The notes under the pieces were generated by a model. The model did not search any database and had not been told where the DNA came from. It was given only the letters and a program-made list of their open reading frames with translations. Shown here in pieces: positions 41,605-52,127 of a stretch of 64,000 nucleotides of DNA. The stretch's first letter is position 1, and the number at the start of each line of letters is the position of its first letter. This stretch comes from Caldisphaera lagunensis DSM 15908 (GTDB lineage Archaea > Thermoproteota > Thermoprotei_A > Sulfolobales > Acidilobaceae): the NCBI RefSeq assembly GCF_000317795.1, contig NC_019791.1, forward strand, positions 620,001 through 684,000, read 5' to 3'. A program made the translations under genes and the position numbers.

Positions 41605-44703
<3,099 letters not shown>

Positions 44704-44890: not shown

Positions 44891-46393
<1,503 letters not shown>

Positions 46394-46550
46394 TACGGTC
46401 GCAAGGGACCGTAGGCGATGGAGCACCTTAGCTCTTCGTGGTCCCTGCTGACCAAAACCCTTGTCAGATCAAAGCTTCCCTAAGATACCTTTCTTAGGGT
46501 TTGCTTAGATCTCCATCCTTAATTGCTCACCGACTCAGTTTTCGCTGAGT

Positions 46551-46590
46551 CGCATTTATTCTTATAGCTATAGCAGGGTATTTAACACTT
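46551..46590 (-). promoter_or_regulatory. Likely rRNA operon promoter and start of leader
   Basis: TTAAATA (46579-46585) lies about 27 nt before AATGCG (46551-46556), which resembles the start of other crenarchaeal rRNA transcripts as I remember them. The leader then opens with a perfect 7-bp hairpin, GACTCAG and CTGAGTC (46532-46551), and a second one, CCCTAAGA with TCTTAGGG, near 46479-46500. Confidence 0.5.
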
Positions 46591-46638
46591 ACGCTACGGT
46601 GTTACTAAATAATCCTATATGACTTTCTAAATAAATTG

Positions 46639-46720
46639 CACCCGCAGCCTGAGGCTGTATCTTCATCCCGGGAAATACTTCCCTGTTGGTACAGCGCCGC
46701 CGGGCAAAAGGCTGCGGGCT
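46639..46720 (-). ncRNA. Candidate structured RNA upstream of 16S
   Basis: An isolated GC-rich island of about 80 nt between a protein gene and the rRNA leader. It folds in three nested helices: CCCGCAGCCT with AGGCTGCGGG (46709-46718 and 46641-46650, 10 perfect pairs), GCTGTA with TACAGC (46690-46695 and 46654-46659), and GGGAA-GTAT-TTCCC (46679-46683 and 46670-46674). A TATA-like TTTAATAG (46743-46750) is well placed for a start near 46721. It does not match SRP RNA, RNase P RNA, 5S or a tRNA. The strand is assumed from the promoter; the fold is nearly symmetrical. Confidence 0.5.
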
Positions 46721-46763
46721 AATTATATTATATAAGGGAAAACTATTAAATCAATAACAATTT

Positions 46764-48143
46764 TTATAAATTTGTACATTTTTCTATATTATCAGCATTT
46801 AACAAAATCTCAAAATATGGGTTTACCTTTAAAATTAATCTTATAGGTGTTATTTTAACAAATCTTCCATTAGGTGTAGATATAGGCTCTGCATATATTA
46901 TGTTATCATAGAAGTTAATTAATGGTAATTGGTTTATTTCCTCTTTAACACCTTTAGTAGAGTAAAAGCCTGTTATTCCATTAACTGCCATTTTTATCAA
47001 ACTATTATATTGCGCATTAATGAATCCCCTTTTATCTGATAAATCATATAATGTCTCAAGCCCTTCAACAACTACAGTATCTGCTTTTATCTCAGATTCC
47101 ATTTTGCTGATCATATAATATAGTTCATCTATTGAATAACGAGTTGGGTTAATTGAAAAAGTTTTAACTAAATCAAAAATTTCATTTGCTTTTTCTTGAG
47201 AAAATAAATTATTTACACATATTTTAAACCTATCCCTTATTGTGTTCTCTCCATGCAAATATGATCTATAAAATACTTTACGCTTTTCTGAAATTATTAT
47301 ATCAACCCCTAAAGCTGTTAATAATATTAAAGGATCTATGCTAGGATGTATAACAAATAGGGTTTGAGATCCTTTTTGAAATTCTAATTTATAATTGCTA
47401 TCCTTAAATTTCAATTCTATTATGCCTTCAGGATTAACTGCTGAAGGCATTCCAAATGGACTTTCTGGCTTAATAATTGCGATTCCTTCATCAGGAGCTA
47501 TTACAAATGGTACTTCTCCAATGCTTATTTCATTCCCCCTCATCTTCCTTATTTCCATTAATCTAATGATTTTTCTCTTAACAATTTTAATTTTTAAAAT
47601 AATAACACCATCAACAATGAATTCCTCAACACCATATCCAACGCTTTTCTTACCATATGGTAATTCAGCAATCAAAAATGTTGTAACTTCTTTTAATTTA
47701 GGGCCTAAATAAAAGAAGTTATGTAATAATTCCCTTATTTTACCTAAATTTTGTTCACCCAATTGCATTATAGCGCTAATTGAATCTATAACCAACCTTT
47801 TTGCATTCATTTTATCAATTAAATCTAGCAATTCTTGCAATAAGTCAGATAATGCATTAATATCTGTAATTGTTATTGCTTCAATATATTTAAATTTACC
47901 TTGTTTTTCATAATATTCAAAATCTATTCCTAAATTTAACATGTTCCTATAAAAATCCTTTTTTGTTTCTGTAAAATTTAAATAAATTGAATTTTCATCA
48001 TTTTTTAAACCTTCATAAAGAAATTTAGATCCAAGAGTTGTTTTACCTGTTCCTGGATTTCCTGCTATTAATATTATTGAGCCTCTGTATATTTTGCTGA
48101 AAATTTCATCGAGTCCTTTGATACCAATCTTTGTTAAAGACAA
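46764..48143 (-). CDS. KaiC-like RecA superfamily ATPase
   Basis: 459 residues. N-terminal KaiC/RAD55 domain: GIKGLDEIF, Walker A AGNPGTGKTT (27-36), Walker B RLVIDSIS (about 115-122). The C-terminal half has no second Walker A and is divergent. Crenarchaea have many such single-domain KaiC homologues of unknown, possibly signalling, function. TTG 48143 follows GGGATAATAA. Confidence 0.85.
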   Translation of the reverse strand: MSLTKIGIKGLDEIFSKIYRGSIILIAGNPGTGKTTLGSKFLYEGLKNDENSIYLNFTETKKDFYRNMLNLGIDFEYYEKQGKFKYIEAITITDINALSDLLQELLDLIDKMNAKRLVIDSISAIMQLGEQNLGKIRELLHNFFYLGPKLKEVTTFLIAELPYGKKSVGYGVEEFIVDGVIILKIKIVKRKIIRLMEIRKMRGNEISIGEVPFVIAPDEGIAIIKPESPFGMPSAVNPEGIIELKFKDSNYKLEFQKGSQTLFVIHPSIDPLILLTALGVDIIISEKRKVFYRSYLHGENTIRDRFKICVNNLFSQEKANEIFDLVKTFSINPTRYSIDELYYMISKMESEIKADTVVVEGLETLYDLSDKRGFINAQYNSLIKMAVNGITGFYSTKGVKEEINQLPLINFYDNIIYAEPISTPNGRFVKITPIRLILKVNPYFEILLNADNIEKCTNL

Positions 48144-52027: not shown

Positions 52028-52127
52028 GCCGCCGTAGCTCAGTAGGTAGAGCGCTGGCCTCGTATGTAAAATAAACCGAAATCGCTGAGAAAGCCAGCGG
52101 TCGCGGGTTCAAGTCCCGCCGGCGGCT
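52028..52127 (+). tRNA. tRNA-Thr (anticodon CGT) with 27-nt intron
   Basis: Acceptor GCCGCCG pairs with CGGCGGC; discriminator T at 52127 as usual for archaeal tRNA-Thr. Anticodon stem CTGGC/GCCAG. The loop is split after position 37 by an intron at 52065-52091. CTCG can pair with TGAG to give a 4-pair central helix with 3-nt bulges TAT and AAA, cut after the second base of each, the standard bulge-helix-bulge. Spliced loop CTCGTAA gives anticodon CGT. Confidence 0.93.

Follow-up and report, generated by a model that had tools for sequence, protein, structure and literature searches.

A probable box H/ACA-type small RNA gene ahead of the 16S rRNA gene in Caldisphaera lagunensis and other Thermoproteota

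The locus and its assignment

A short GC-rich segment ahead of the rRNA operon of Caldisphaera lagunensis DSM 15908 raises the question of which RNA it encodes and in which direction it is read. The window (the whole stretch of DNA that was analyzed, 64,000 nucleotides of contig NC_019791.1 from position 620,001 to 684,000) carries the operon on its minus strand, with the 16S rRNA gene at 44893-46393 and the 23S rRNA gene at 41618-44688. The island at 46640-46719 is 62% GC, versus 15-31% in segments towards the protein gene, and none of its shuffled versions folds equally well (minimum free energy z = -5.0 for the plus and -3.3 for the minus strand), in agreement with a preliminary description, made from the letters of the sequence, which held that in so AT-rich a genome a GC island outside known genes usually marks a structured RNA; the 10-bp outer helix, the middle helix and the apical hairpin that it listed are all present. 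The element occurs as one copy in its own genome of 1,546,846 bases. None of the 4227 families of Rfam 15 scored above the gathering threshold for the element in the window or for its distant homologs, and the matches with weak E-values are chance. The earlier reader, who saw no match to a known family, was right that this is a structured RNA outside the families of Rfam but overlooked the H/ACA class despite the K-turn, the pocket and the box ANA.

The element is assigned with high confidence as an archaeal box H/ACA-type sRNA gene of the single-hairpin kind, co-directional with the rRNA operon; its pocket would most likely pair with 16S rRNA. The H/ACA-type identity of the RNA is very likely. 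The features of the locus are as follows.

46763..46770, minus strand: TATA-like box upstream of the RNA (TTTATAAA), by motif score
46635..46720, minus strand: predicted H/ACA-type sRNA (about 85 nt), 5' end of the sense strand near 46720, matched by covariance models R1 and R2
46709..46719, minus strand: lower stem P1, 5' strand, pairing with 46640-46650
46696..46708, minus strand: 5' pocket strand (UUUGCCCGGCGGC), its GGCGGY portion near-invariant
46689..46695, minus strand: upper stem, 5' strand, pairing with 46654-46661 (helix 2 of the covariation test)
46685..46688, minus strand: K-turn, non-bulged strand CAAC (1n A and the next C invariant or nearly so)
46670..46683, minus strand: apical hairpin (helix 5 of the covariation test)
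46662..46668, minus strand: K-turn, bulged strand GGAUGAA (a bulge of 3 nt, the last being U, followed by GA; U-G invariant, A nearly so)
46654..46661, minus strand: upper stem, 3' strand, with one bulged A (covarying)
46651..46653, minus strand: 3' pocket strand CUC (CUCC in most homologs)
46640..46650, minus strand: lower stem P1, 3' strand (covarying)
46637..46639, minus strand: box position, GCA in the window
46579..46586, minus strand: TATA-like box between the RNA and 16S (GTTAAATA), likely rRNA promoter, by motif score
44893..46393, minus strand: 16S rRNA gene (Rfam RF01959), likely substrate

The minus-strand RNA runs from 46720 to 46635, in the same sense as the rRNA operon, and was matched by R1 and R2 at G000:C1:666635-666720 and 666637-666719, respectively, both on the minus strand. 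The span of 46639-46720 given in the preliminary description does contain the element but falls short of its end, as the RNA reaches about 46635 and the box occupies 46637-46639; the plus-strand reading that these coordinates implied is replaced by the minus strand as the functional one, on the evidence of the 3' box, the K-turn and the G-U pairs in relatives.

Structure, covariation and H/ACA features

The 74 non-redundant copies are all parsed alike: a lower stem (about 10 bp) leads into the 5' strand of the pocket and then into an upper stem that contains a K-turn, after which come the 3' strand of the pocket, 10 nt and the box. The lower stem, which covaries in these 74 homologs, has 10-11 bp (about 7-9 bp, or a functional equivalent, is expected of an H/ACA RNA); its sequence varies among lineages while its pairing is kept, with 713 of 740 cells paired versus 593 in the best of 500 shuffles. 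Over the whole structure, both partners change in 19 of the 22 pairs; all of the 500 shuffles fall short on each of the five measures, and the fit collapses when the register is slid. Conservation of the helices in relatives, which the preliminary description had wished to see examined by covariance models and by alignment upstream of 16S, is borne out by these compensatory changes.

The box is ANA, directly 3' of the lower stem, in 68 of 70 homologs, and GCA in the window itself. The distance from the box to the pocket-closing pair is 14 nt in every parsed copy (14-16 nt in H/ACA RNAs), and 10 layers were counted in the window from the pocket-closing pair to the second sheared pair; productive archaeal H/ACA RNAs have a 10-layer GA stem and 14 nt from box to pocket (PMC4652768). 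Archaeal H/ACA RNAs carry a K-turn or K-loop in the upper stem, with a GA stem of about 10; the K-turn found here consists of a 3-nt bulge that ends in U and is followed by GA, which stands opposite RA. The A of this opposing strand precedes a C, and apart from R the letters are invariant or nearly so; position 2n is A in the window and G in many homologs. UGG replaces UGA in the copies L205 and L200 (family f7) and L184 and L187 (family f6), a departure from the usual G.A pair. The pocket motifs GGCGGY and CUCC are near-invariant throughout the phylum, while the sequence of P1 changes; the 3' motif is CUCA or CUCU in the closest kin of the window.

By analogy with known archaeal particles, the predicted transcript would fold into the lower stem, the two-strand pocket and the upper stem with its K-turn; L7Ae would bind the K-turn, Cbf5 would bind the box and the pocket, and Nop10 and Gar1 would be the remaining proteins of the particle. 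GGCGGY and CUCC, the conserved strands of the pocket, would base-pair with a second RNA, for which 16S rRNA during assembly of the small subunit is the likeliest candidate.

The canonical archaeal box H/ACA sRNAs (Pab21, Pab35, Pab40, Pab91 and Pab105 of Pyrococcus; sR201/sR202 of Pyrobaculum) likewise have one hairpin, a lower stem, a two-strand pocket, a K-turn in the upper stem, the ANA box, the 14-nt spacing and the 10-layer GA stem (PMC4652768). The new RNA differs from them in its 3' pocket strand of 3-4 nt (5-6 nt in known productive guides), its lower stem of 10-11 bp, its 5' pocket strand of up to about 14 nt, its want of a target at standard spacing, its fixed place beside 16S and its absence from Rfam; known productive guides fold as 10/5/9 or 10/6/9, whereas the new RNA folds as approximately 10/4/10. 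The H/ACA-like RNAs sR203-sR210 of Pyrobaculum share the K-turn hairpin, and degenerate NCA boxes like the GCA of the window occur among them (PMC4652768), but they have no lower stem, which in the new RNA is long and covarying. The RNA is a new member of the known H/ACA class, and what is unusual about it is its phylum-wide link to the rRNA operon and its pocket. To our knowledge, H/ACA guides are sparsely catalogued in Thermoproteota; no description of an H/ACA RNA upstream of 16S was found in an incomplete search of the literature, so an earlier description is possible.

Homologs and their distribution

Comparison with relatives by BLAST gave four convincing homologs, which all precede 16S and are oriented alike with respect to it; in the rRNA sense, their outer helices show paired changes, GCCCGGCGGCGCUG and CUC are conserved, and an internal loop resembles a K-turn. 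The first covariance model, R1, matched 68 of 214 genomes of the order; two of its weak matches, in G048 and G177, were set aside as seemingly unrelated. The second model, R2, built from 34 diverse members, found homologs in 106 of 211 genomes within the order and, phylum-wide, in 176 of 398. Genomes with no match include several drafts with an incomplete 16S region and the Sulfolobaceae-like family f11 (L132-L138), in which no homolog was found upstream of 16S or by covariance model. A Sulfolobaceae counterpart sought with the pattern CCAGGCG...CTCC...ACA was rejected, the only matches being unrelated sequences or 16S itself; m1acp3-pseudouridine is nevertheless known in Saccharolobus, and a diverged or different guide is expected in f11. 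A pattern scan of named organisms gave mainly chance bacterial matches, together with matches in Acidilobaceae, Pyrodictiaceae, Desulfurococcales and a Bathyarchaeota contig (JAPWUR010000004.1). The RNA family probably extends over more than one class, and its covariance model allows wide annotation of the gene. The 16S genes of genomes of family f2 (L101, L210) are split by introns that seemingly encode homing-endonuclease-like proteins.

Candidate targets and functions

The target search returned three candidate uridines within the 16S rRNA gene.

45914: U480 (E. coli 518, in the 530 loop)
45536: U858 (E. coli 891)
45461: U933 (E. coli 966)

Within the order, U933 ranked first in 14 of 21 operons, and in many lineages its 5' pairing amounts to 7-10 bp; phylum-wide, U480 ranked top in 25 of 41 operons, followed by U933 and then U858. 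All three depart from the rule of two unpaired target nucleotides (UN), the best sites needing 3-4 unpaired, and the best mean score of a reversed-rRNA control was 25.7, versus 28.1, 24.9 and 23.7 for U480, U933 and U858, respectively. Because the three sites break the two-nucleotide rule and the control scores close to them, no target is claimed. A search for a standard-geometry target throughout the C. lagunensis genome gave no rRNA match, and U2604 of 23S rRNA (E. coli 2457) was rejected, having just 3+5 bp and a low rank after genomes were added. Synteny and the pocket matches make it likely that the RNA acts on 16S, the leading candidate places of action being the 530 loop and, in E. coli numbering, U966, and the existence of three candidate sites makes the function directly testable.

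A further reading of function, possible but less likely than not, is that of an ancient, phylum-wide H/ACA particle, the RNA of which would be the first element of the rRNA operon and act in trans on 16S through a non-standard pocket, where it would either keep the 530 loop and h31 open as the subunit assembles or, in a relaxed geometry, form the pseudouridine of m1acp3-pseudouridine 966.

It is possible, if somewhat unlikely, that the RNA is a plain pseudouridine guide for U933, the product of Cbf5 then being converted to m1acp3-pseudouridine by Nep1 and Tsr3; CUC(C) would pair with the GGAG just before U933, and (UU)CCCGGCG with the CGCCGGG(AA) after it. Yeast snR35 guides pseudouridylation of the 18S counterpart of E. 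coli U966, which later becomes m1acp3-pseudouridine, and the new RNA would act at the equivalent site should the U966 reading hold; unlike snR35, it is a one-hairpin archaeal unit with a K-turn and non-standard spacing, and its modification of the site is putative. The first rank of U933 within the order accords with a plain guide, as do matched changes of guide and target in g57 (CCUGGCG with CGCCAGG), G214 and G350, but mismatches occur in g25, g15, G130, G213, G330, G400, G237, G251, G384 and G347. The target U-C-A-A would be left unpaired (4 nt, not 2) with 2 or 5 guide nucleotides to spare, and a third unpaired residue is already reported to be unfavorable (PMC4652768). Copies of family f6 that are distant from 16S retain UUCCCGGCG, and S. 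solfataricus has m1acp3-pseudouridine 930, at the site of U933 and E. coli 966 (PMC11698992), but no homolog was found in the Sulfolobaceae, which carry the modification. P. abyssi has been modelled with m1-pseudouridine at the E. coli 966 position (PMC7005279), and the literature that was found names no guide for the hypermodified P-site uridine in archaea.

Unlikely, too, is a non-modifying RNA of H/ACA fold that would hold open 16S at the GCCGCC of the 530 loop and/or at h31, a chaperone like snR30/U17 but unrelated to it. GGCGGY fits 16S positions 521-526, with 6-8 bp directly beneath the upper stem, and its final Y suits a G partner, but a U.U mismatch lies on the 3' side, the copies of family f6 are mismatched at this site (GACGGC), and the universal sequence of the 530 loop places the pairing beyond a covariation test. 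The top score of the 530-loop site phylum-wide must be set against that of the reversed-rRNA control (28.1 versus 25.7); a chaperone would also be consistent with the gene adjoining 16S and with the finding of no standard modification target. Eukaryotic snR30 is an H/ACA RNA with atypical pre-rRNA pairing (PMC7991803); snR30/U17 and the new RNA are alike in having an H/ACA fold and atypical complementarity to small-subunit rRNA; they differ in rRNA site and in pocket motifs, and the processing role that belongs to snR30/U17 is putative for the new RNA.

Position relative to 16S and transcription

The start of 16S lies at most 1 kb downstream, on the same strand, in 73 of the 79 inspected loci; two of the other six are near a contig edge and four have no 16S in that position. 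The retention of the gene next to 16S in different classes, together with a pocket that hardly changes, points to a core role in assembling the small subunit. One free-standing copy (L046, in G018) is located amid protein genes at a distance from 16S and retains an intact pocket and box; two copies of family f6 (L184, L187) are likewise separated from 16S, and L200 (in G170), a divergent copy, is directed away from it. As these relocated copies keep the pocket, the RNA is predicted to act in trans.

By motif score, loci whose spacer to 16S is at most 151 nt have a TATA-like box ahead of the RNA and in most cases lack one in the spacer, while spacers of at least 172 nt usually hold a TATA-like box; the window has the long-spacer layout, with such a box on both sides of the RNA. 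In compact operons the only good TATA box is upstream of the RNA, and therefore the RNA probably begins the pre-rRNA, forming a single transcript with the rRNA, which suggests that one promoter serves the rRNA and one of its assembly RNAs in many lineages. The preliminary description had offered a free small RNA or an upstream part of the rRNA transcript as alternatives, and each holds in places: the former where copies moved away from 16S keep the pocket, the latter in compact operons, where the RNA shares the rRNA promoter as judged by motif scores. Its distance of about 80 nt to the likely rRNA promoter was an overestimate, the TATA-like box starting about 50 nt downstream of the RNA.

That the RNA is not independent but a cis-acting signal for processing or transcription within the pre-rRNA leader is very improbable: the position is nearly always directly upstream of 16S, and the promoter is probably common to both in compact operons, but a TATA-like box separates the RNA from the rRNA in many lineages, that of the window included, the free-standing L046, L184 and L187 and the divergent L200 retain pocket and box, and the box, K-turn and spacing match those of H/ACA RNAs. 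A structured RNA of unknown class on the plus strand is scarcely credible, for despite its lower folding energy (z = -5.0) the ANA box and the K-turn letters are found on the minus strand only, G-U pairs outnumber A-C mismatches in P1 of the homologs when read as the minus strand, and the orientation relative to 16S is constant. Two further classes were tried and rejected, namely RNase P RNA or a split S domain of it, prompted by CAACAG/GUGAAG (a normal RNase P RNA is present at G000:C1:1383244-1383554, with 187 bits), and a tRNA or split tRNA (ARAGORN recognizes no cloverleaf at the locus).

Other features of the window

The protein gene at 46764-48143 (minus strand), which resembles a RecA/KaiC-type ATPase with the Walker A motif GNPGTGKT, ends about 44 nt before the RNA, with a stop codon that shares nucleotides with the upstream TATA-like box. 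At 52028-52127 (plus strand, 100 nt), Rfam identifies a tRNA that apparently contains an intron and is missing from the ARAGORN list. A second conserved hairpin, GGAGAUCUAAGC...GAUCUGACAAGGG, lies at 46440-46515 (minus strand) between the H/ACA RNA and 16S; it is found at the same place in nearly all loci (for example, L239 and L247), with the consensus GGRCCUAA...UUAGGUCUGAC, and is probably a portion of the 16S processing leader.
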